A stretch of DNA of 64,000 nt from Chitinophagaceae bacterium (GTDB lineage Bacteria > Bacteroidota > Bacteroidia > Chitinophagales > Chitinophagaceae), in contig CANFHA010000007.1 in NCBI GenBank assembly GCA_947446645.1, positions 62,001 through 126,000 on the forward strand, in the 5' to 3' direction. This document shows, piece by piece, positions 12,240 to 49,551 of the stretch. The notes below the pieces were generated by a model. That model was not told the origin of the DNA. It ran no database searches and saw only the letters and a list, made by a program, of their open reading frames with translations. A program made the translations under genes and the position numbers. Each line of letters opens with the position of its first letter. The stretch's first letter is position 1.

Positions 12240-12297
12240 AGCGATACAGAAGGTGGCGAGATATACATTCCCGCCTTTTTCTTACTTTGCTTTGCAA

Positions 12298-13521
12298 ATG
12301 GATAACTCCCTCACCAAATCACGGATTGAGATCTTCCTCCTTTTTATACTTTACCTGTTCATTCTGCCGAGGGTGTACATGGAGTATGATATGGGATTCT
12401 GGCGGGACTGGGCATTGCAGATACACCACAACGGACTGGCGAATACTTATAACTCTACTATTAACTATTTCCCGGTATATGTATATGGGTTGTACATCTA
12501 CGACCTGCTACAGGGCACGGATGCCAACATTGTGCATAATATAAACAGTATAAAAATTCTGTTCGTATTCTTCGACTTCCTGCCCATATTTGTGCTTTGC
12601 GGATTCAGGCAAAGATTACTTTCATTCAAAATACCCTACCTATTCCTGTTGCTCAATATTGCCTATGTGTTTGACTCCATGGTATGGGGTCAGATAGACA
12701 GTATGTACATCAGCCTGTCTTTTCTGGCTATCATTTCAGGGTTCTGCTACCCTATTGCCGGCGTGCTGCTTTACCTGCTTGCGCTAAATACCAAGCAGCA
12801 GGCAATTGAATTTTTGCCTATAATGGCAATAGTGCTCCTGTACAGTGTTAGAAAACAAAAGACTATAATAACCGCCTTTTTAGGAGCAGCAGTATTACAA
12901 TTGTTATTGCTGCTGCCATTTCTCTCTAATGGTGGCGCAGGAAAGCTGCTAAATATTGCCGGGAATACGGTGGGCTTATATAACCAGTTATCTATCTGTG
13001 CATTTAATATTTGGTACCTTATCACCAGGGGCAATCCCTATTTTATAGATTCAAACAGCACTTATATACTGTTTTCCTACCGGACTACGGGGATGATAAT
13101 GTTTGGAGCAGCGGCACTGGCGGTGTTAATTCCTCTATTGCGCAGAGTCTGGAACTTGCGGAAAAACAATCTTGCACCCGACGATAATACCTACCGTATT
13201 TTATTTTTGGCAACGGGGCTGGTGTGCCTGTATTTCTTTTATTTCAACAGCCAGATGCATGAGCGCTACGCACAGCCCATTATCCTGTTCTTCTTTTTCT
13301 ATGGTGTAGCGTCTAAAAATTACAAACTTTACATACTGGCATCAATTCCATTGTTTCTAAGCCTGGACAAGTGCTTTCCCGATTTTCTCCCTATCGTACA
13401 CTACAAAATCATGTACGCATCAGTAGTGATCGCATTATGGTATACTGCAACTGTTGTTTATGGGAGCTACCTTTACTACAGACTGGTAAAGAGCGTGGAA
13501 CTTATAAGTAGTGCCAAATAA
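12298..13521 (+). CDS. membrane-bound mannosyltransferase-like protein (GT-C fold)
   Basis: The ATG at 12298 opens a 407-residue protein with about ten membrane helices. The first large loop carries EYDMGFWRDWALQIHHNGL, with an acidic residue in the position of the GT-C catalytic aspartate, and later FDSMVWGQIDSMY, typical of DUF2029/GT87 and Gpi18-like mannosyltransferases that use polyprenyl-phosphate sugars. The motif FYFNSQMHERYAQPIILFFF near the C-terminus is also seen in these enzymes. The acceptor is unknown. The frame is open to 12253, but the internal ATG begins right before the first helix and is preferred. Confidence 0.78.
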   Translation: MDNSLTKSRIEIFLLFILYLFILPRVYMEYDMGFWRDWALQIHHNGLANTYNSTINYFPVYVYGLYIYDLLQGTDANIVHNINSIKILFVFFDFLPIFVLCGFRQRLLSFKIPYLFLLLNIAYVFDSMVWGQIDSMYISLSFLAIISGFCYPIAGVLLYLLALNTKQQAIEFLPIMAIVLLYSVRKQKTIITAFLGAAVLQLLLLLPFLSNGGAGKLLNIAGNTVGLYNQLSICAFNIWYLITRGNPYFIDSNSTYILFSYRTTGMIMFGAAALAVLIPLLRRVWNLRKNNLAPDDNTYRILFLATGLVCLYFFYFNSQMHERYAQPIILFFFFYGVASKNYKLYILASIPLFLSLDKCFPDFLPIVHYKIMYASVVIALWYTATVVYGSYLYYRLVKSVELISSAK

Positions 13522-13548: not shown

Positions 13549-14586
13549 CTAGAGTTTTTTCAACCAAACCGCGATACTGTCCTGGCGCGCCTCTGTAAGT
13601 GCTGCATTTACCAATATGCCATTACCCGGAACCACGCCGGAGTTAGACCAGTAATAATATTTACCTTCCTTATTTGCCATCACCACCAGCTCATATTTGA
13701 ATCCTGGGGGAACAACGCCTGTATTGCCTATACTCTTTAGGATCAAGGTATTTGATGTATCGAAATAGTTGGAATCACTTACGCCTAAGTCTCCCAGATT
13801 GCTGATAACGGCACTTCCTGCCCAGCCTGCATTCGTTTTTGGCAGTACCAGGTATATCTCTGTATTTGTGTTATTAAATGATGCATCGGGCAACACTACT
13901 GACACCCCAACACGCGAAGAATACGGATCGATGAACCAACCACAATTTGCAAAATTGAGATTGCGGCAGGATGAAAAATAATAACAAGTATCTACGCGCG
14001 TGTTCGACGTACCACCAAGCACGCCGTATGTCGTAATTCTCTGTGTACCAAAATTTACCTGGGCATCGCTCTGTGCCCAACTGATTGTAGAGTCCGTTCT
14101 GCTGGTAGAACCGTAAAACAGTCCCATGGGCGCTGAAGACGAGTCTTTCTGCCTGAATCCAATTCCGTATCCGTTTGTGAATACTTCCTGGCCATTCATG
14201 GTAGCCTTTATCATCACCTGCCCGGTACTCTGTAGTATTTCGCCAGTAGGCATCATGGTGGTTACGCGGTTATTTATTATGTCAGCAGGACTGTACATTT
14301 CTGTTAGCTCCACCGTTATTTTACCGCTGGTAATAGTTGCCCCGCTGTTATTTCTAAAGGAGTAATTGTAAAAATGCAATAGTGTACCCTTATCCCCAAA
14401 GACCGTTACATCTGTGCCGGCATCAACCACAATTGTTTGAGGCACAGACCTGAATGCAGAGAACAATGTATTGAGCGAAGGTGTGGGCGTAACAGGTGTA
14501 ACCTGGTTGTTAGTTTTTTTGCACGACACGATAGCCCCCGTGGCTACCAGGCAAAAAAAGGCTATAGGATAAAGCGCTCTTTTCAT
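13549..14586 (-). CDS. lipoprotein of about 345 residues, function unknown
   Basis: The ATG at 14586 is followed by a lipoprotein signal (FFCLVATGAIVSCKKTNN) and a Thr/Pro linker. The mature protein is beta-rich, with segments such as GTDVTVFGDKGTLLHFYNYS and ITVELTEMYSPADIINNR that resemble Bacteroidota surface or adhesin-like lipoproteins. No catalytic motif is seen. A longer frame to 14694 adds an unrelated aromatic stretch and is rejected. It converges with the GT-C gene (27 nt gap) and its upstream end lies next to the tRNA-Asn island boundary. Confidence 0.7.
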   Translation of the reverse strand: MKRALYPIAFFCLVATGAIVSCKKTNNQVTPVTPTPSLNTLFSAFRSVPQTIVVDAGTDVTVFGDKGTLLHFYNYSFRNNSGATITSGKITVELTEMYSPADIINNRVTTMMPTGEILQSTGQVMIKATMNGQEVFTNGYGIGFRQKDSSSAPMGLFYGSTSRTDSTISWAQSDAQVNFGTQRITTYGVLGGTSNTRVDTCYYFSSCRNLNFANCGWFIDPYSSRVGVSVVLPDASFNNTNTEIYLVLPKTNAGWAGSAVISNLGDLGVSDSNYFDTSNTLILKSIGNTGVVPPGFKYELVVMANKEGKYYYWSNSGVVPGNGILVNAALTEARQDSIAVWLKKL

Positions 14587-14714
14587 AAAAAGGTTTTGGT
14601 TTGCTAATATAGTTAAAAAGTATTCACTAAAGAAATGATAGTCTTGAAAGAAGTAAAACACATAAATATAACTTGGCGGGGCTGTGATTAGCACTGATCA
14701 CTTTCCTGAAACAA

Positions 14715-14738
14715 AATAGCCGCATTGCTGCGGCTATT
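14715..14738 (-). terminator. terminator beyond the tRNA-Asn 3' fragment
   Basis: Perfect 10-bp stem AATAGCCGCA / TGCGGCTATT with a 4-nt loop, followed on the minus strand by TTGTTTC. It sits 2 nt past the displaced tRNA 3' end, as an original tRNA terminator would before an element was inserted. Confidence 0.75.
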
Positions 14739-14740
14739 GA

Positions 14741-14771
14741 TGCTCTCCCTTCCGGACTTGAACCAGAGACC
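14741..14771 (-). repeat. distal attachment-site copy (tRNA-Asn 3' fragment)
   Basis: Contains the end of the variable loop, the full T arm and the 3' acceptor strand of tRNA-Asn, but the D arm and anticodon arm are absent. It differs from the intact gene by one base (14753), which still allows a G-U pair in the T stem. Confidence 0.8.
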
Positions 14772-14790
14772 TGCTCACTAAACATCCCTT

Positions 14791-14850
14791 TTGTTCCTGA
14801 TGCCCCGATGGGTATCAGGAACAATTGATAAAAGCCGGTCTGTGACCAGA
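14791..14850 (+). repeat. two-hairpin repeat, copy A
   Basis: The first hairpin is TTGTTCCTGAT.CC / GG.ATCAGGAACAA, followed by an A-rich spacer and a second small hairpin GGTCTGTGACC. The same order and much of the sequence recur inverted at 15033-15094 and direct at 36511-36569. Confidence 0.6.
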
Positions 14851-15032
14851 ATTTTTATTGCTGTAGTTCATTCGAAGTATGTTAGCTCAATTTTTCCTCC
14901 TGCACCACAGAAATCTCTGGCGCCCACTGTGCTACAGTGCGAGTGATAAAATGCATTGTTTGCTGGTCTGTTATCTTGCAGGCAAAATCCCGTCTTTTAT
15001 TATAACTCATTTTGCTTTTAGTTCAATGACTA

Positions 15033-15094
15033 CTGGTCGGAGACCAGGTCCTATTTTTGCGTACCTGATGCCCTGCGGAACATCAGGAACAACG
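15033..15094 (-). repeat. two-hairpin repeat, copy B (inverted relative to A)
   Basis: On the minus strand it reads TTGTTCCTGATG, TTCCGCAGGG, CATCAGG, then an A-rich spacer and CTGGTCTCCGACCAG. Copies A and B face each other across about 180 bp, as in REPIN-type doublets. Confidence 0.6.
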
Positions 15095-15103
15095 GGTAAT
15101 GCA

Positions 15104-15646
15104 CTAATTGTATGCATAAATTATATGGTCTTCTTTGAAGTAGAAACAAGATGGATGCAAGCCTTCCCAACAAGCTTGATATTGATTGCCACTTCCATAG
15201 TTGGAAGGGTTTAGATGGTATGGTCTCCCAAGTTGATAAACTAGCATTTCATATGTCATGCCAATCCATATTTTTCCATCTAAAACATCAATAGCCTCAT
15301 CCTCTGTGCAACTAAATTTATCCATGACCTTTTTTGCTTTTTTTGCTCTTTTATCGGCTAATAATTGATCTGCCTTTAATATTGACTGTTTTTTTTTATT
15401 TGCTAATATTTGAGCTTTTAATTCTGCCTTTCCAATTGGACTATTCTTAAAAGAGTCTAAATAATTGTCCTCTTTTGCCTTCTTTGCAGCATAAACACTA
15501 TCAATATGCAATTGTTCTGCCTTTACTAATGAGTCTTGAATCATTCGTTTACTCTCCAAAACAGATTGGGAATCACCGCATGATAACAGTCCCAAGATTA
15601 TCAGTAGAAAAAATATAATTGCTTTAATTGGTAATAACGTTTTCAT
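15104..15646 (-). CDS. lipoprotein with Lys/Ala-rich coiled coil and BamE/SmpA-like C-terminal end
   Basis: The 180-residue protein starts with a lipoprotein signal (FFLLIILGLLSCGDSQS). Residues 30-110 are charged and helical (many K, A, E, D). The last 60 residues contain IWIGMTYEMLVYQLGRPYHL and a final CFYFKEDHIIYAYN. This resembles the short alpha/beta fold of SmpA/BamE-like domains (G-M-t-x-x-x-v-x-x-x-l-G-x-P then a strand pair), which occurs in many unrelated envelope lipoproteins. A role in outer-membrane assembly is not implied. It belongs to the tRNA-Asn island; its AT-rich sequence differs from flanking genes. Confidence 0.7.
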   Translation of the reverse strand: MKTLLPIKAIIFFLLIILGLLSCGDSQSVLESKRMIQDSLVKAEQLHIDSVYAAKKAKEDNYLDSFKNSPIGKAELKAQILANKKKQSILKADQLLADKRAKKAKKVMDKFSCTEDEAIDVLDGKIWIGMTYEMLVYQLGRPYHLNPSNYGSGNQYQACWEGLHPSCFYFKEDHIIYAYN

Positions 15647-15692
15647 TTGCTTGTCTTTTTATAAACCTACTAAAAAAAATGATGGCATGTAA

Positions 15693-15833
15693 TACCTACC
15701 TGGACAGGCGCTTGGACATTCTTATGGTAACGCCACTACTTCCATATACCTCGACGACTATGATAATGCGATCATCGATGAAGCGAATGAAAAGGTGATT
15801 AAGGCCGTTTTTATAAAGAGTAAGAAAAAATAG
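15693..15833 (+). pseudogene. tyrosine recombinase (phage-type integrase), C-terminal remnant
   Basis: The plus-strand frame reads LGHSYGNATTSIYL followed by DDYDNAIIDEANEKVIKAV and a basic tail before a TAG stop at 15831. This matches the C-terminal box of tyrosine recombinases: the His of LGHS and, 11 residues later in IYL, the catalytic tyrosine. The YLDDYDNAIIDEAN ending is typical of Bacteroidota integrases. An in-frame stop at 15690 and the absence of the catalytic core upstream show that only the last 45 residues remain. It supports the view that the surrounding region entered by site-specific integration. Confidence 0.75.
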
Positions 15834-15906
15834 AAAAGAGCCTGCTACAACCAACCTATAAACCCTTCTTTTCTGCCTCTACCGGTCAGCTCTTAAATTC
15901 AGCCCC

Positions 15907-16809
15907 CTACCAGTCTTCATCCCATATTCTCCTTTCCTCCTCTCTTCTCCTTTCCTTCTCCTCTTCCTCCTCAATTTCTGATAATCTTTGTTGTTCGGCT
16001 TCATCGATACGTTTATTTACCAAACTAACGCCAATTCTGGCTGTGTGGCTTGAGTCGAATAAGATTGGCGCCGTTTGGTAAGATATCTCGATGACAAAAG
16101 TATCGGTTACAAAATAATAACCCCGCGGAGTAAATAAACTCACCTCATTGTATGGAAACTGCTTTAGGGTAAGCTCATCATGCTCCTTACTTCTGTTTGT
16201 GGGGTCAAACTTATGCGCCCTTTTTCTAACAATAGCACACGGCTGATCATCTGAAATATTTTTCGACCAGTATTCGGAGAAAATGATCCGGTTCATAAAC
16301 CCTCCAGACAGGGCGAGTTGTATCTTGCCCGTATGGTCAGCTATAGCAGAGTTTGACTCCAGAGCTATTTTCGTTGCGAGCAAAAATGAGTGGTCCAGAC
16401 TCGAAAAAGGGAAAACATAGTTCTTGATGTATTCCTGATATTCTTTCGAATCAAGCTCTTCCTTCAGCTTTATCTCCTTTGCTAAAAGCTCATAAATTTT
16501 CTTTTCATATTCTAGCTTAGTGAGCGGTTCTGGCATTCTAACTTGCCCCCGGGAAGACTTTTGAACACGGTCTTCTGCCGGGTTTTTAAGGTCCTGAAGT
16601 CGAGCTATCTCAAACTGTATAGAATCGAGTTCTCTGATTTTCTCTCTATCCTGTGTTAGCTTTTCCTGGTCTGATGAGCTCAGGTATTCACCGTAAGAAT
16701 CCATTTCACCAACCATCCCTGGTAACGGACGATTGAAAATATCTAGTAAAATTGTCCTCCAGTTTTTGGGAGGTGGAGTCATAGCCTTCAGTTCGTCAAG
16801 CTTGAACAT
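15907..16809 (-). CDS. coiled-coil protein of unknown function (island gene)
   Basis: The 300-residue protein has no signal peptide. Residues 50-140 form a charged coiled coil (REKIRELDSIQFEIARLQDL; KKIYELLAKEIKLKEELDSK). Residues 140-265 are a globular part with GGFMNRIIFSEYW, FTPRGYYFVTDTFVIEISYQ and HTARIGVSLVNKR, not recognised as any family. The C-terminus is an extreme acidic/basic helix rich in E and R. It is transcribed divergently from the J-domain gene across 288 nt, so the two may share a control region and act together. Cytoplasmic location is expected. Confidence 0.65.
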   Translation of the reverse strand: MFKLDELKAMTPPPKNWRTILLDIFNRPLPGMVGEMDSYGEYLSSSDQEKLTQDREKIRELDSIQFEIARLQDLKNPAEDRVQKSSRGQVRMPEPLTKLEYEKKIYELLAKEIKLKEELDSKEYQEYIKNYVFPFSSLDHSFLLATKIALESNSAIADHTGKIQLALSGGFMNRIIFSEYWSKNISDDQPCAIVRKRAHKFDPTNRSKEHDELTLKQFPYNEVSLFTPRGYYFVTDTFVIEISYQTAPILFDSSHTARIGVSLVNKRIDEAEQQRLSEIEEEEEKERRREEERRIWDEDW

Positions 16810-17097
16810 ATGGAAAGATTTAGGTTCGAAAATACAGACTATTATATAATTATTCGCCCGGATGGATTACAAGTACTGCACTCCATTCCAGCATTGCCCG
16901 AATTTTCTGCCATATTCAGCGATTCTAATTTGGGCTGGATTAGTATTAGTTTTTGTGTTGTTGTTATCATTGCTTAATTTGATTTTTAAATATAAAAAAA
17001 AATATCACCTGACAAAGATCAAGTTTTAACTATTGCATGTAATTTTCAAAAAAAAGTAAAGTAATTTCATACTGTGTCTTAATATCTTACCCTAAAA

Positions 17098-18234
17098 ATG
17101 TATCAGTTCGTAGACTTTTATTCACTACTAAAAATTCCACCTGAGTCTACGTCAGTAGATGTATTAGCTGCAATACAAAACACTGACTTTGTTACCAGGT
17201 CGCAACAAATTTTTCGTGATGCCACCCGGATTTTGCTTGATCCGGTTTTAAGGGTAAGCTATGATCAAGAGTACTGCAGAGTAAAAGGAATTGATGCATT
17301 ACCTATACAGACTAGTATAGTGGAAAAGGATGATGCAGGTGATTGGCTGAATAACATTATATTGGACATCAAAACAGAGGCTGGACTGCATCCTCTTACA
17401 AAATACCATTATACTGTAAATGAATCGCTCTTAGAACCTTGCAAAGAAACACCGGTAGGGACAAGAGTGTTTAACAAAGAAACACATAGCCTTGATCAGC
17501 TAAGAAATGAAGCGTACAGGTATTTTGATGAAAGGAAAAAATTAATAGACTTCTGGATTCCTTCTAACATTTACGATAAGAATGAGGATCAGGAAGTAGA
17601 ATTGAATATCAGGCTTGTCGAACAAACCAATACAGACAGAAAAGAACAGATCGTCAAGAGTTTAAAAAGAATAATACCACAATCAGTAATTGAGTATGAA
17701 GCCGGTGTATTAAAACATTGCCGTAACAGACCACCCAACTTTGGCCATAATGGTATCTCTATTGACCCTAACTACCAAAATTCACGAAATGTATCAGATC
17801 GTGAATTATATCCACATCTGGTAAAGGGGGCCTATTATCAAATACTTGACATAACTAGCAAGGCTACCCAGCTGGAAATAGAAAATGCTTACAAGAGAAA
17901 GCAGAACAAGAATAATGTTTCCATGTGGCATCCAGATTGGACTGATGAAAAAGACACCTATGCGAATATGCGTCATATTCATGATGCTTACAAGGTGCTA
18001 TCAGATCCCAAATTACGACTAGAGTATGATGCTATTTTATTGAAGGCATATGCACCAGCACCTGCACCTAAAAATGAAAAGTTTACCAGTGATTTCACAA
18101 ATAGTACTACCAGTAGCAATTATGTAATTTCAAGAACTCGAAGTGCATCACAATCTGATCCTCAAAAAAACAATAACAAAAGAAAGCATTGGTTCTCACG
18201 CTTGATTAATATGTTACGAAGAAAGAAGGCATAA
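17098..18234 (+). CDS. double J-domain protein, first J domain lacking HPD (island gene)
   Basis: The 378-residue protein has two related segments. Residues 4-58 (FYSLLKIPPESTSVDVLAAI ... ILLDPVLRVSYDQEY) and residues 243-314 (YYQILDITSKATQLEIENAY ... VLSDPKLRLEYDAIL) follow the DnaJ J-domain pattern. Only the second keeps the HPD motif (His278-Asp280, in WHPDW), which activates Hsp70 ATPase; in the first the helix II to HPD part is missing. The middle 60-240 is unrecognised, and the tail is basic and amphipathic (KHWFSRLINMLRRKKA), possibly membrane-associating. No Gly/Phe or zinc-finger regions are present, so it is not a standard DnaJ. An Hsp70 co-chaperone role is inferred. Confidence 0.78.
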   Translation: MYQFVDFYSLLKIPPESTSVDVLAAIQNTDFVTRSQQIFRDATRILLDPVLRVSYDQEYCRVKGIDALPIQTSIVEKDDAGDWLNNIILDIKTEAGLHPLTKYHYTVNESLLEPCKETPVGTRVFNKETHSLDQLRNEAYRYFDERKKLIDFWIPSNIYDKNEDQEVELNIRLVEQTNTDRKEQIVKSLKRIIPQSVIEYEAGVLKHCRNRPPNFGHNGISIDPNYQNSRNVSDRELYPHLVKGAYYQILDITSKATQLEIENAYKRKQNKNNVSMWHPDWTDEKDTYANMRHIHDAYKVLSDPKLRLEYDAILLKAYAPAPAPKNEKFTSDFTNSTTSSNYVISRTRSASQSDPQKNNNKRKHWFSRLINMLRRKKA

Positions 18235-18920
18235 GAGATTGCTCACACAAGTAATTAGTGCATCAGTTTGAACTAAATGTCCTACCGGTAAGTAAAGGAA
18301 ATAAACAATAAAGAGTTGATTAATATCTAACTGGAATAAGACGTATTCTGGCATTAAGCTTAGGTAGCTATAGGGAAATTAGCGTGACAGGTATGTTATA
18401 TTTTCTTTGCTGTAGATCAAGTCGAGTAGTTTAGTGCACTTAAGCTACTCGGCTTTACAGATTTCTTTTGAGATGGACTATCCCTCAATAATGACCAAAG
18501 TCCCCTGAAAATGAAATCTATTATTATCTTTAATGAAGTTAAAAACATTGATAGTTTATGTTGACCTATATCAAAAATCTCCTTCCTCGTCTCCACCTGC
18601 TGGGATGATAGTTTACAGATACCCGACATGGTAAACATTACTGAAGCAGCCATCCACAAATGCAGCTGCAGAATCATTTAATGCTAAAGTAAAAGCATTT
18701 AGAGCTACTTCCAGAGGTGTGCGCGATATTAACTTCTTCCTCTTTAGAATAGCAAATATTTATGCTTAAAAGAAGCCTTCCCCCAGAAATCCTGCTTGAT
18801 CCTAATTGGCACCCCTAGAATACAAATCCTTTTAGATAAATCTTAAACCCAAAATCGTGCATATTTCGTGCAAATGAAAAGGGTTCCAAAGGTATGATCC
18901 TCTGAAACCCTTTCTGCTAG
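18235..18920. other. non-coding end of the island
   Basis: No convincing gene. A minus-strand 86-codon frame at 18417-18677 has no recognisable feature. An inverted repeat CGAGTAG / CTACTCG (about 18422-18452) could terminate transcription. The right end contains the terminator of tRNA-Asn. Confidence 0.4.
18878..18913 (-). terminator. hairpin downstream of tRNA-Asn
   Basis: AAAGGGTTCC (18878-18887) pairs with GAAACCCTTT (18904-18913). On the minus strand it lies 9 nt past the tRNA and ends in CCCTTTTC. Confidence 0.6.
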
Positions 18921-18951
18921 TGCTCTCCCTTCTGGACTTGAACCAGAGACC
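18921..18951 (-). repeat. proximal attachment-site copy inside tRNA-Asn
   Basis: Partner of the 31-bp repeat at 14741-14771, here as part of the complete tRNA gene; 30 of 31 bases are identical. Confidence 0.8.
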
Positions 18952-18996
18952 CTCTGATTAACAGTCAGATGCTCTAACCAACTGAGCTAAGGAAGA
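18923..18996 (-). tRNA. tRNA-Asn (anticodon GUU)
   Basis: The minus strand folds as a full cloverleaf: acceptor TCTTCCT / AGGGAGA, D arm AGCTCAGTTGGTTAGAGC, anticodon loop CTGTTAA between TCTGA and TCAGA, T loop TTCAAGT, discriminator G. CCA is not encoded. It is 74 nt long and acts as the integration site of the adjacent island. Confidence 0.95.
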
Positions 18997-43279: not shown

Positions 43280-43352
43280 GCGGGAGTAGCTCAGTTGGTA
43301 GAGCATCAGCTTCCCAAGCTGAGGGTCGCGGGTTCGAGTCTCGTCTCCCGCT
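43280..43352 (+). tRNA. tRNA-Gly (anticodon CCC)
   Basis: Full cloverleaf: acceptor GCGGGAG / CTCCCGC, D arm AGCTCAGTTGGTAGAGC, anticodon loop TTCCCAA between TCAGC and GCTGA, T loop TTCGAGT, discriminator T. CCA is not encoded. It reads GGG codons. A terminator follows after 5 nt. Confidence 0.94.
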
Positions 43353-43357
43353 CGTTT

Positions 43358-44133: not shown

Positions 44134-44410
44134 ATATGAAAACCATACGGCTTATATCTTAAAGGCCATATAATTAGGTCAGATGAATGCCGTATGGTTA
44201 ATCACTCACTATTTATCTTTCATTTTCAGGGGACTTTGAGATTTAGGAGAGGTAGTCCGTCTCAAAAGAAACCAGCTTGCAAGGTTTGTACACTTTGCAC
44301 AGCAACATCACTGGAAACAAAATACAACATAACTCTCCTTGCCATGTGACCTCTATTACACCCGATACACCGAACTGCATTATGCCTTGTAGGTGGGTGC
44401 TTATCTTGGG

Positions 44411-44905: not shown

Positions 44906-45037
44906 TTATCGTTCAAGATACAGTCTTTTAAGAATCTCGTTTCCTGGCCGGGGAATGAGGTTTTTTATTTCAATACTATCAGATAAGAATTATTGCTATC
45001 TTGCGTATATCTTTTTCCATACAAAAAACTAGAATTC

Positions 45038-47269
45038 ATGTTCCGTAAGTTTACTTTACTTATTGCGTCTGTGGTATGTGTTATAGCCAGCAGTCACGCA
45101 CAGGTTACACAGCCATGCGCTACAGATGAGCATTACCGGCAATTAGTCCTTAGGCATCCTGAACTGGCCGAATATGAAAGGAATTTCAATGAACAATTAA
45201 GCCGTCGCCTGGCTGAGCGTACTACAGCTACCAACGACACCACTATCTACGATGTGCCGCTGGTGCTGCATGTGGTGCACGATTACGGCAACGAAAACCT
45301 TAATGATACCGTGCTGATTGATGCAGTAAAGTACTGGAATGTGATATACATGAAGCAAAACGGCGACACTACAGATGTTATTCCTCCGTTTGTGCCTTAT
45401 GTAGGAAATGCACGGATACGGTTCCATCTCGCAACCATTGATCCTGACGGCAATCCCACTAAGGGAATTGTGCGTACCAACTCGTACCTCACCGCTATGG
45501 CAGACGACCAGGCGAAGTTCAACTCATGGCCACAAAACAAGTATATCAACATTTGGTTTATCGGTAATTTTGGCAATGACTATGCAGGTGTTGCTGCTTA
45601 CGCTACCCCCCCCATTTTGGCAACTTTTCAGCCATATTACGATGGTATTATATGCCTTAGTTCGTATGCCGGTGTTTCTGACCCTTCTGTGTCCAAAACA
45701 ATTCCGCATGAAATGGGTCATGTACTTAACCTGGCTCATACGTGGGGAAATACCAATAATCCCGGCGTAGCCTGTGGCGATGATGGGGTTGATGATACTC
45801 CGCCTACAAAAGGACACAACCCATCGGGATGTACCGCCGCGGCACTTTATGATACCGCATGTGCTACCGGTTATGCAAAAACCTATTTATCTGTATTATC
45901 AGGCCTGGTAGATTCCCTGGTCGACTATCCAGATACTGTAAATTCCCAAAACATAATGGACTACACCTATTGCGACAGGATGTTTACAAAAGGTCAGGCG
46001 GCCCGCATGCGCGCTGCGCTTACATCGCCAACTGGTGGCAGAAATAACCTTTATAGTCCTTCTAATCTTGCCGCCACCGGCGCTTTAGCTCCCTACCCGG
46101 ATTTACCGCCAAACGCAGATTTTATTATCAACAGGGGCACTTCCGGTGCTTCAGATGCACGCTCTTATTTTCTTACGGTTGGTAATCCTTCAAGTTTCGT
46201 ATTTCGCAATGCCAGCTGGAATGACACGATTGCAAGTGTGGCATGGACCTTTTCAAATGGAGCCACAATACCTGCATCTACAAGCATTACAACGGTGACC
46301 AACCAGTTTACAACACCGGGCTGGGTTTCTGTTTCGCTGGTTGCCAACTCAAACGCAGGAAGCAATACTATCACAAAAACCCAGGCAGTTTATGCCGCAG
46401 ATACTACTACAGTGGGTGGCATGGGCTACACACAGAAATTTGCCAGCGCCGCAGATATCAGCAACTGGCCAATGTTCAATTTTTACAATAATGAATTCAA
46501 GTGGGAATTCTACCCCGGCGTTGGCATAGACGACAATTCCTGTATTCGTTATCGCTCATGGGATGGCTCTGCAAGGAATACAGGCAATGCGAAAGGTGAC
46601 CATGACGATATCTATACTCCTGCATTTAATCTTGCCGATGCTACTGACCGTCTTTATCTGAACTTTTTCACCACCGGAGCCTATACACATCACAACATCC
46701 CATCGGGCGGACCCTACACTTTCGACACGCTGGAGGTATATGCGAGTGCTACAGGAGGAAAGACCTGGGCAAAGATCGGTGTCTTAGGTGGCTCTAGCCT
46801 GGCTAACAATAACCAATACGGATACGAGTTCATACCTACTTCGGCCTCACCATGGGTGCCTCGCTCTATCAGTGTGCCGCTTAGCTTTCGTACTGCGCAA
46901 ACATTCTTCAGGTTCCGTTATCGTCCGGGTAATACAGGCAACGATCTTTACATGGACAATTTTTATTTCGATGGCTTCCCTGCAGGTGTTAAAGAGACGA
47001 TTGCAGCTACTCCAAATACATTCAGCATATTCCCTAATCCGTCTGCTGATGGTTTCAATATGGTTTTCAAAACCGGAAATACAGGAGTTGTCAATTATAT
47101 GATCCGCGATCTGGCTGGCAAAGTTGTGTATGAAAACAATAAAACATTTGTCGCTAACAGCATGCAGCAAGAGGCAGTGTCAAGGTCTGTAATCCCAGCT
47201 ACAGGAATGTATTTCATTACTGTGACAATTGACGGGGTGAATATGAACAATAAGGTGGTAATCTATTAA
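45038..47269 (+). CDS. M43 (pappalysin-type) zinc metalloprotease, T9SS cargo, copy 1
   Basis: The ATG at 45038 gives 743 residues with a signal peptide (LLIASVVCVIASSHAQ). The metzincin zinc motif is HEMGHVLNLAH (His224, His228, His234) followed by the Met-turn region NIMDYTYCDRMF, both typical of cytophagalysin/pappalysin M43B enzymes. A PKD-like domain follows at about 350-450, then a jelly-roll region (about 480-640) and a C-terminal sorting domain with FSIFPNPSADGFNMVF and GMYFITVTIDG, the type A signal of the type IX secretion system. It is secreted or surface-bound. The next gene is a close paralogue 59 nt downstream. Confidence 0.93.
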   Translation: MFRKFTLLIASVVCVIASSHAQVTQPCATDEHYRQLVLRHPELAEYERNFNEQLSRRLAERTTATNDTTIYDVPLVLHVVHDYGNENLNDTVLIDAVKYWNVIYMKQNGDTTDVIPPFVPYVGNARIRFHLATIDPDGNPTKGIVRTNSYLTAMADDQAKFNSWPQNKYINIWFIGNFGNDYAGVAAYATPPILATFQPYYDGIICLSSYAGVSDPSVSKTIPHEMGHVLNLAHTWGNTNNPGVACGDDGVDDTPPTKGHNPSGCTAAALYDTACATGYAKTYLSVLSGLVDSLVDYPDTVNSQNIMDYTYCDRMFTKGQAARMRAALTSPTGGRNNLYSPSNLAATGALAPYPDLPPNADFIINRGTSGASDARSYFLTVGNPSSFVFRNASWNDTIASVAWTFSNGATIPASTSITTVTNQFTTPGWVSVSLVANSNAGSNTITKTQAVYAADTTTVGGMGYTQKFASAADISNWPMFNFYNNEFKWEFYPGVGIDDNSCIRYRSWDGSARNTGNAKGDHDDIYTPAFNLADATDRLYLNFFTTGAYTHHNIPSGGPYTFDTLEVYASATGGKTWAKIGVLGGSSLANNNQYGYEFIPTSASPWVPRSISVPLSFRTAQTFFRFRYRPGNTGNDLYMDNFYFDGFPAGVKETIAATPNTFSIFPNPSADGFNMVFKTGNTGVVNYMIRDLAGKVVYENNKTFVANSMQQEAVSRSVIPATGMYFITVTIDGVNMNNKVVIY

Positions 47270-47328: not shown

Positions 47329-49551
47329 ATGTTCAATAAGTTTCTCTTATTTGTAGCGGCTATTTTGTGTATAGCCAGTATTGGTCGGGCTCAGTCCGAT
47401 ATTCAACCCTGTTCTACCGACGAGCACTACAGACAGTTGCTTGTTAAATATCCGCAGCTTGCAGAATATGAAAGGCAGTTTGAAGAACAGCTGGGCAGGC
47501 GCCTTGCAGAAAGGACCACCGCAGCAAGCGACACAACTACGTATGATATTCCGCTGGTGCTGCACGTAGTGCATGATTATGGTACCGAAAATCTGAATGA
47601 TACCGATCTCTATGCAGCCGCTGCATACTGGGCTGAGGTATATATGAAGCTGAACGATGACACAGCTTTGGTTATCCCTACTTTCGTACCATATATTGGC
47701 AATCCACGCATTCGCCTGCACCTTGCTACTATTGATCCCAATGGAAAACCAACCAAGGGTATCACGCGCTTCAATTCTTACCTTACAGCTGCCGCTAGCG
47801 ATCTCGCAAAGTTTAACGACTGGCCGCAAAACAAGTACATCAATATCTGGTTTATCAGCGCCTTTGGCGCAGATGCAGCAGGTGCTGCTGCTTATGCCTA
47901 CCTGCCTTTTAGTGCTGCATTTCAGCCTAACTATGATGGTATCATCTGTCTTTCATCTTACGCCAATTATTCTAAGACAATCCCTCATGAATTGGGCCAT
48001 GTACTCAATCTGTCTCATACCTGGGGAAATTCTAATAATCCGGGTGTGGCATGTGGTGGCACCGACAATGTAGATGATACACCGCCTACAAAGGGCCATA
48101 ATCCTACAGGTTGTGTGGCTGCATCTCTGTACGATACTGCTTGTGCTACCGGTTACACGAAAACTTATTTGTCTGTACTGTCTGGCCTTATGGATTCTGT
48201 TGTTAATTATCCTGATACTGCTAATGCAGAAAATATCATGGATTACACCTATTGCTCACGCATGTTCACTAAAGGGCAAGCTGCGCGCATGCGCACAGCG
48301 CTTACCAGCACTACTGCATCGCGGAACAATCTGTATGCTCCTTCTAACCTGGCGGCGACAGGCGCACTGGCTCCAATGCCTGATTTACCACCCGTTGCAG
48401 ATTTCATCGTTAACAGGGGCACAGGTATCGTGACAGATTCCCGTTCTTATTTCCTTACTCCTAATTGCGGGTCTAACTTCGTATTTCGCAATGCAAGCTG
48501 GAATGACACACTGTCAAGCGTAGCATGGACTTTTTCTAATGACGCAACCACTCCTGCATCTGCCAGTATGACTACTGTGCCTAACCAGTTCACAGTGCCA
48601 GGTTGGGTGAGCGTGTCGCTTATCGCCAATTCTAATGCAGGAAGTGACACCATTACCAATGCAAGGGCGGTATATTCAGCAGATACTGCTATAGTTGGAG
48701 GCATGGGGTATACGCAGAAGTTTGCCAGCGTAAGCGATATCAGCAACTGGCCGATGTTTAACTTTTACAACAATCAGTTCAAATGGGAGTTTTATACTGG
48801 TGCCGGAGTTGATGACAACACCTGTATCCGTTACCGTTCTTACGATTCCTCAGATAGAAACCTGGGTAATGCGCTTGGTGATCATGACGATATTTATACG
48901 CCAGCGTTTAATCTTGCTGATGCATCAGATCATCTCTACCTTAATTTTTCTACTTCCGCCAAGTATACACATTACAATTTATCCGGCGGCACTACCTATG
49001 TTTATGATTCCCTGGAAATAGATGCAAGTACTAACGGTGGCAGATCATGGGGGAAGATAGGCGGATTAGGAGGAAATAATCTTGCCAATGGTGGCATATC
49101 TAACCTTGAATATAAAGCCAACTCTGCAAGTACATGGGTTTCGCGCTCGCTCAATGTTCCTGTTAGCTACCGTACTGCGCAAACATTTTTCAGGCTCCGC
49201 TATCGTCCGGGAAATGTGGGTAATGATATGTATTTCGATAATTTCCATTTCGACGGTTTCCCTGCCGACGTGAGAGATGCAATGGCTGCATCGCCAAATG
49301 CTGTGAGCGTGTTCCCGAATCCGGCATCAACTGGTTTCAATATGGTATTCCGCACTGGTATTGATGGTGTAGTTAACTATACTATTAAAGATCTTACTGG
49401 TAAAGTGGTATACCAGGCCAGCAAAGTATTTGCAGCAGGAAGCATGCAGCAGGAGTTTGTACCACGCACGGCCACACCAGCTGCGGGCATGTACTTTGTT
49501 ACTGTAAGCGTAGACGGTGTGAATACCACCAATAAGTTGGTTATTTACTAA
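47329..49551 (+). CDS. M43 (pappalysin-type) zinc metalloprotease, T9SS cargo, copy 2
   Basis: The 740-residue protein has the same domain order as its upstream neighbour: signal peptide (LLFVAAILCIASIGRAQ), M43 catalytic domain with HELGHVLNLSH (His220, His224, His230), PKD-like domain, jelly-roll region and type A sorting domain (VSVFPNPASTGFNMVF). Most of the length aligns without gaps, with differences concentrated in loops such as the region before the zinc motif. The catalytic residues are intact in both, so both should be active. It ends in a strong terminator, and the two genes probably form one transcript. Confidence 0.93.
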   Translation: MFNKFLLFVAAILCIASIGRAQSDIQPCSTDEHYRQLLVKYPQLAEYERQFEEQLGRRLAERTTAASDTTTYDIPLVLHVVHDYGTENLNDTDLYAAAAYWAEVYMKLNDDTALVIPTFVPYIGNPRIRLHLATIDPNGKPTKGITRFNSYLTAAASDLAKFNDWPQNKYINIWFISAFGADAAGAAAYAYLPFSAAFQPNYDGIICLSSYANYSKTIPHELGHVLNLSHTWGNSNNPGVACGGTDNVDDTPPTKGHNPTGCVAASLYDTACATGYTKTYLSVLSGLMDSVVNYPDTANAENIMDYTYCSRMFTKGQAARMRTALTSTTASRNNLYAPSNLAATGALAPMPDLPPVADFIVNRGTGIVTDSRSYFLTPNCGSNFVFRNASWNDTLSSVAWTFSNDATTPASASMTTVPNQFTVPGWVSVSLIANSNAGSDTITNARAVYSADTAIVGGMGYTQKFASVSDISNWPMFNFYNNQFKWEFYTGAGVDDNTCIRYRSYDSSDRNLGNALGDHDDIYTPAFNLADASDHLYLNFSTSAKYTHYNLSGGTTYVYDSLEIDASTNGGRSWGKIGGLGGNNLANGGISNLEYKANSASTWVSRSLNVPVSYRTAQTFFRLRYRPGNVGNDMYFDNFHFDGFPADVRDAMAASPNAVSVFPNPASTGFNMVFRTGIDGVVNYTIKDLTGKVVYQASKVFAAGSMQQEFVPRTATPAAGMYFVTVSVDGVNTTNKLVIY

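Follow-up and report, generated by a model that had tools for sequence, protein, structure and literature searches.

A tRNA-Asn integration hotspot in a Bacteroidota genus and a probable decayed CIME-like island at its 3′ end

The 4.2-kb segment behind the tRNA-Asn gene of this Chitinophagaceae genome is very probably a decayed CIME-like element that arose by site-specific integration at the tRNA 3′ end, one resident among many at this site. We analyzed it within a stretch of 64,000 nucleotides (the window) and compared it across 35 genomes of the genus, the window's own (G000, contig C7) and 34 others. The GC content is 0.380 for the island vs 0.443 for the window. The features are shown in Table 1.

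Table 1. Features of the tRNA-Asn island and its two ends (window positions)
Feature	Positions	Strand	Basis or remark
Scar motif GGAAAGTGATCAGTG and start of a further lost tRNA tail	14685-14706	minus	motif comparison
Apparent old tRNA-Asn terminator, displaced 4.2 kb	14715-14738	minus	fold and homology
Attachment core, distal copy, one mismatch in T-stem	14741-14771	minus	direct repeat
Pair of palindromic hairpins, dispersed genomic repeat	14791-15092	.	genome search
180-aa lipoprotein-like protein, widespread family	15104-15646	minus	87 proteins including own
C-terminal remnant of a tyrosine integrase (46 codons plus stop)	15693-15833	plus	DNA and protein likeness to integrases
300-aa orphan protein	15907-16809	minus	own copy alone found in 60 genomes and protein search
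378-aa J-domain protein	17098-18234	plus	
Fragment, possible IS end	18386-18525	.	repeated at C4:217959 and partly at window 44218-44271
ISAon1-family transposase C-terminal relic	18635-18769	plus	NF049917 E 2.4e-18; PF01610 E 3.7e-7
Presumed integrase arm-type sites, direct repeats TTTGCACGA and TATGCACGA	18852-18874	minus	7-nt exact repeat, period 11
Element-borne terminator hairpin beside tRNA 3′ end	18877-18913	minus	fold z -5.88; homologous junctions elsewhere
Attachment core, 31-bp, tRNA-side copy	18921-18951	minus	direct repeat
tRNA-Asn(GTT), intact, target gene	18922-18996	minus	ARAGORN; Rfam RF00005 68.4 bits

The distal core matches the 31-nt 3′ terminus of tRNA-Asn at all but one position and has the same orientation; the two copies start 4180 nt apart. 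A first-pass annotation of this DNA had noted the recurrence, and our searches confirmed it. A 24-nt tail pattern with up to three mismatches occurred only at these two places (chance mean 0.00), and with this pattern no third tail copy was found within the 64 kb. An all-against-all comparison of 31-mers in the whole window (at most one mismatch) gave two clusters, and no unrelated pair of 31-mers equaled that of the tRNA. The other cluster, 46196/48478, lies inside two adjacent similar genes, a gene duplication. We read the T-stem mismatch as one that would weaken a pair, as expected of a copy that is not used as a tRNA.

At the outer end, five genomes have a genuine tRNA-Asn tail with its terminator that can be aligned with all or the inner part of 14682-14771: G026 (85% identity over 94 columns), G006 (82% over 76), G032 (80% over 75), G010 (80% over 64), and G017 (78% over 59). 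The likeness of tail plus terminator is not wholly specific to tRNA-Asn, as G016 has a weaker match at a tRNA-Met (76% over 63). The hairpin has a fold z of -4.96 and is also listed by a simple terminator pattern scan, which itself performed at chance level (3 found, 2.9 expected). Eleven homologous hairpins from eight genomes were aligned against a structure written by hand from one of the 11 sequences: all 106 testable cells were paired and nine cells had changes on both sides, values that none of 500 shuffles reached. The numbers of pairs with a double change (three; reached by 75 of 500 shuffles) and of further pair types (eight; 221 of 500) did not go beyond the shuffles. Because this terminator is joined directly to tRNA-Asn in the five genomes and its pairing is conserved, it looks like the old tRNA-Asn terminator, pushed away by the insertion; the earlier suggestion that it fits the original tRNA thus gained support.

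The inner end carries a different terminator, together with two TNTGCACGA repeats spaced 11 nt apart. This flank (18838-18921) aligns to the tRNA-Asn flank of G001 (contig C87, 92% over 51), G011 (79% over 81), and G031 (80% over 60), and to the flank of a tail in G026 (contig C68, 79% over 66). It was also found behind a tRNA-Lys of G020 (79% over 70, E 1.4e-11); none of the remaining 14 tRNA-Lys stretches compared with it matched well. Since the inner arm is common to other tRNA-Asn junctions and to the tRNA-Lys of G020, it belongs to the element and travels with it. Eight of the 39 junctions examined, including those of the window, G011, G003, and G020, have tandem repeats with a period of 11 or 12 that begin 46-52 nt beyond the tail; by analogy we presume that they are integrase arm-type sites. 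The window's repeat is the weakest of the eight, being reached in 12 of 300 shuffles; for four of the eight no shuffle out of 300 did so. Stronger versions are present in G011, G003, and G001. As a lone pattern the arm repeat was not above chance.

Both ends of the island support site-specific insertion at the 3′ end of tRNA-Asn: the tRNA 3′ tail is duplicated, and the joint of tail and terminator is undisturbed elsewhere, in genomes where the same outer genes were not found. The first-pass annotation had predicted that strains with an empty site would join the tRNA 3′ end directly to the terminator at 14715-14738. This held for the tail-terminator joint, present in the five genomes named above, but none of the genomes examined had an empty tRNA-Asn site with the window's outer genes (13549-14586 and 12253-13521), so exact excision is putative and the insertion need not be recent. 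Two genomes look unoccupied, with tRNA-Asn and a terminator followed by one gene (217 aa in G004 and 208 aa in G002, 60% mutual identity). G004 keeps the window's genes further out (a 764-aa gene is 76% identical), with four other genes in between; these differ, which indicates that other events, too, have reshaped the region. According to the annotation, an unchanged region in all relatives, or no strain with an empty tRNA-Asn site, would have counted against recent or site-specific insertion. Neither applies: the genes for the 180-aa and 300-aa proteins were found in 0 of 59 other genomes searched, and G004 and G002 look unoccupied.

Our results showed that tRNA-Asn is a genus-wide integration hotspot. 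Partial copies of the gene that reach its 3′ end were present in at least 11 of the 35 genomes. Ten came from a genus-wide tRNA-Asn search (G000, G001, G003, G006, G008, G018, G020, G026, G033, and G034), with E values of 5.1e-8 or better, lower still in G008, G026, and similar genomes, and 7.6e-6 in G033; the eleventh, in G010, has an exact 3′ half and came from a separate locus comparison. In G001 and G006 the copies have the opposite orientation or sit on a different contig, so some copies do not mark a clean island edge. Two control tRNAs were searched. For tRNA-His, no partial 3′-end copy was found among the matches listed for the 35 genomes; for tRNA-Tyr, no genome had a second match reaching the end. 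Matches of 31 nt to tRNA-His (87%; G006, G024, and G001) stop 4 nt short of the 3′ end and were taken for other tRNAs, and a best tRNA-Tyr match covering only 29-84, found in nine genomes, was taken as the genome's own divergent tRNA-Tyr.

Different cargo at the same tRNA, for which the first-pass annotation had proposed to look, was found as other islands and integrases in other genomes. G020 has a 10.3-kb island at tRNA-Asn with a perfect tail copy. Integrase-like genes start about 150-270 nt behind tRNA-Asn in G034, G008, G024 (a fragment), G028, G019, and G014, the last three encoding proteins with only 22-28% identity to the other tRNA-Asn integrases; in G008, tRNA-Asn tails on two contigs each adjoin an integrase, and the two integrases differ. 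On the 5′ side, a 643-aa gene adjoins tRNA-Asn in 12 of 30 loci compared, the window's included, and several of the remaining loci run into a contig edge; judged by this gene, the closest genomes are G001, G004, G005, G015, and G020. These data contribute a tRNA-Asn hotspot that is well resolved, in a Bacteroidota genus that has been little studied, and the locus offers a two-ended reading of the site, the apparent old terminator at one end and the element-delivered one at the other.

Of the integration machinery, the island retains a relic. The C-terminal integrase remnant proposed earlier was verified: 80 bp of its DNA are 77.5% identical to an integrase gene of G011, and its protein shows 76% identity over 38 residues to the G008 integrase at tRNA-Asn, and 82% over 39 and 86% over 36 residues to two integrases at tRNA-Val. 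It would fit descent of the island from an ICE or IME, but phage satellites may use such integrases too. There is no intact tyrosine integrase in the island, and no relaxase or conjugation domain was detected in the six longer ORFs that were scanned; the claim that no intact mobility gene is present agrees with this.

Most probably, an integrative element recombined into the tRNA-Asn 3′ end by means of its tyrosine integrase and supplied its own copy of the tail, so that the tRNA stayed whole. The element's terminator would have landed directly behind the tRNA, where it could now function, and the old one would have been pushed 4.2 kb off, behind the displaced tail copy. Decay would then have reduced the integrase to 46 codons; an ISAon1 copy would have arrived and decayed as well, and transfer genes, of which none was seen, would have been lost in the same way. 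What remains is both attachment ends, together with three apparently intact coding ORFs, and a related integrase could still excise the island in trans.

According to the review PMC5704250, a CIME (cis-mobilizable element) keeps attL and attR and has lost its integration and transfer genes, and tandem accretion takes place at attR. The island likewise keeps both att sites at a tRNA 3′ end where tandem accretion occurs, and has lost its integration gene and, in the six ORFs scanned, its transfer genes. It differs from a CIME in being only 4.2 kb and in that its cis mobilization is putative, and its parent could be an IME, an ICE, or a phage satellite. The IMEs NBU1, NBU2, MTnPi4, and Tn6031, which PMC5704250 places at tRNA-Leu, -Ser, -Leu, and -Pro of Bacteroidota, are tyrosine-integrase elements of the same phylum that also occupy tRNA 3′ ends. 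Unlike them, the island has a tRNA-Asn target, has no working integrase, such as a functional NBU1-like IME possesses in intact form, and showed no mobilization genes. As a decayed relic at a tRNA, the island is of an ordinary, known kind; the trail of tRNA-tail scars beside it is unusual.

A refinement of this main reading, to which we give somewhat less than an even chance, is that the island is composite: elements accreted in tandem at the same tRNA, deletions followed, and the inner arm, the outer copy, and the integrase relic come from different elements. The relic is oriented towards the tRNA. Its kin at tRNA-Asn in G008 and G034 begin next to the tRNA and point the other way, so one has to assume either an inversion or a second element. 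This misfit, together with the start of a further lost tail in the outer scar, suggests that two or more elements may have taken part. The tail units arranged in tandem in G026 and G033, and the two integrases of G008, point the same way, and accretion is the rule described for such sites (PMC5704250). The composite origin is, however, at odds with the presence of only two tail copies within 64 kb, and no third arm was recognised inside the island, in an arm search whose matches were at chance level.

The outer scar has the layout tRNA tail, terminator, GGAAAGTGANCAGT, and tail again, which is arranged in tandem in two relatives and recurs at tRNA-Lys. In G026, two scar motifs 92 bp apart lie behind tRNA-Asn, followed by the contig end, and a second contig starts with two more; the same genome also has the motif flanked on both sides by tRNA-Lys tails, about 44 kb away from the tRNA-Lys of that contig. 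G033 has three tandem units, at steps of 107 and 102 bp, with its own version of tRNA-Asn and three different terminators. Single scars are present in G001 and, about 15 kb behind the tRNA, in G019. The motif plus TTAATCA, with up to two mismatches, occurred 11 times in five of 149 genomes, all five in this genus, and all 11 occurrences adjoin a tRNA tail, whole or decayed; allowing three mismatches gave five further matches, about the background level (four for the reversed pattern).

The plain reading is that elements with a common end accreted and were deleted time and again, leaving the scars behind. Partial tRNA copies left by integration are described as attR marks of islands (PMC9897764); in the passages of that paper that deal with them such fragments are treated singly, whereas the tails of G026 and G033 also form tandem units with terminators. 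We found no description of tail-terminator arrays in a sample of the open-access literature, of which few papers were covered in detail, and regard these arrays with their motif as the unusual part of the locus.

We think it unlikely, yet worth stating, that the unit of about 90-110 bp made of the tRNA 3′ half from the anticodon, a terminator, and GGAAAGTGANCAGT is a mini integrative cassette moved in trans by a tRNA-targeting integrase. Such cassettes would form the tandem arrays behind tRNA-Asn in G026 and G033, each with the host's tRNA version, and would also act at tRNA-Lys in G026; the scar at 14685-14771 of the window would be one of them. To our knowledge it would be the smallest integrase-borne cassette. 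The tRNA would gain repeated terminators and fresh attachment sites, and mobile units of this kind would link tRNA islands with cassette arrays.

The distal copy, followed by a terminator, the motif, and a lost tail, is built exactly like the array units, and it might itself be a unit of an old tail-terminator array, with the 4.2 kb grown by ordinary insertions and rearrangement and no single integrase event. We judge this quite improbable, as an element arm like those at other tRNA junctions lies in the inner flank and the island holds an integrase relic.

The three cargo genes that the first-pass annotation listed are open reading frames with a coding score in their own frame only. The family of the 180-aa protein was aligned from 20 of its 87 members. 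No relative of the 300-aa protein was found at E 0.001, and thus no conserved module was seen. The 378-aa protein consists of a degenerate N-terminal J-like repeat, a middle domain of beta-beta-alpha-beta-beta-alpha topology, a C-terminal J domain with HPD (within an MWHPDW segment), and a C-terminal helix; by this domain it is likened to the DnaJ/Hsp40 J-domain proteins, and a co-chaperone role is putative. Two of the three loci of its family in the genus have no tRNA within 10-15 kb, so the gene is not tied to islands. As far as our searches show, this two-J-repeat family with a well-modelled middle domain is uncharacterised. A J-domain protein could serve in stress, and the three ORFs stayed open and coding while the mobility genes decayed, as in a phage-defence or stress islet kept through selection on its cargo; this suggestion of the first-pass annotation found no support and is very unlikely, since neither the three island proteins nor two relatives scanned alongside matched a PADLOC model, the 300-aa protein lacks relatives at the threshold given above, and the 378-aa protein matched no phage record and, among plasmid records, one generic DnaJ.

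The paired hairpin described in the earlier annotation is real, but it does not belong to the island as such: it is present at six other places in the genome (E < 1e-6), and a repeat so dispersed is not island-specific. The ISAon1 transposase relic had been missed by that annotation. The C4:217959 copy of the 18386-18525 fragment adjoins a tRNA-Lys tail.

Related integrases were found at tRNA-Asn, tRNA-Val, tRNA-Gly and tRNA-Met genes in various genomes (loci L113-L118 and L200). Similar integrases are associated with differing tRNA targets in these loci. One of them (L115; contig C13 of the genome that holds the window, 121997-123256) lies behind tRNA-Val and has a reading frame of nearly full length; it is 86% identical over 36 residues to the integrase relic of the tRNA-Asn island.

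The flanks of tRNA-Lys(CTT) were compared by eye across the genus (L231-L245). Many differing terminator and direct-repeat sequences lie behind this tRNA, and because of this variety it looks like a second hotspot in the genus. The scar motif GGAAAGTGANCAGT occurs both at tRNA-Asn tails and at tRNA-Lys tails, and it forms part of tandem units.

Loci of the tandem units (3' half of the tRNA, terminator, GGAAAGTGANCAGT) and of the motif at tRNA tails, in other genomes of the genus
Locus	Genome and contig	Coordinates
L198	G026:C147	7822-8070
L209	G033:C386	1875-2200
L232	G026:C136	

Elsewhere in the genome that holds the window (contig C4, 217959; L145), a fragment resembling 18386-18525 of the window adjoins a partial tRNA-Lys tail, which is accompanied by a terminator of its own and by repeats of the GGTACAACA type. 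This is apparently another island edge. The fragment recurs as a short copy at 44218-44271 of the window, approximately 870 bp behind tRNA-Gly (43280-43353), and no second tail copy of this tRNA was found within the window.

A relative of the island's 378-aa J-domain protein is encoded in genome G012 (contig C51, 1794-2824; L112), approximately 170 nt from a tRNA-Arg gene and on its 3' side; a second copy of that tRNA's tail was not found within 15 kb. In G001 (contig C87, 3548-4236; L197), a generic J-domain ORF of 148 aa is situated 5' of tRNA-Asn, and the J domain is the only part that it shares with the 378-aa protein.

In G011 (L212), the 3' end of tRNA-Asn points towards the gene of the 643-aa family, the family that neighbours the tRNA on its 5' side in the window; the tRNA segment therefore appears to have been inverted or moved in that genome.

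Two large, similar neighbouring genes of the window (44993-47269 and 47329-49551) have 31-mers in common, at positions 46196 and 48478, and are a tandem gene duplication.
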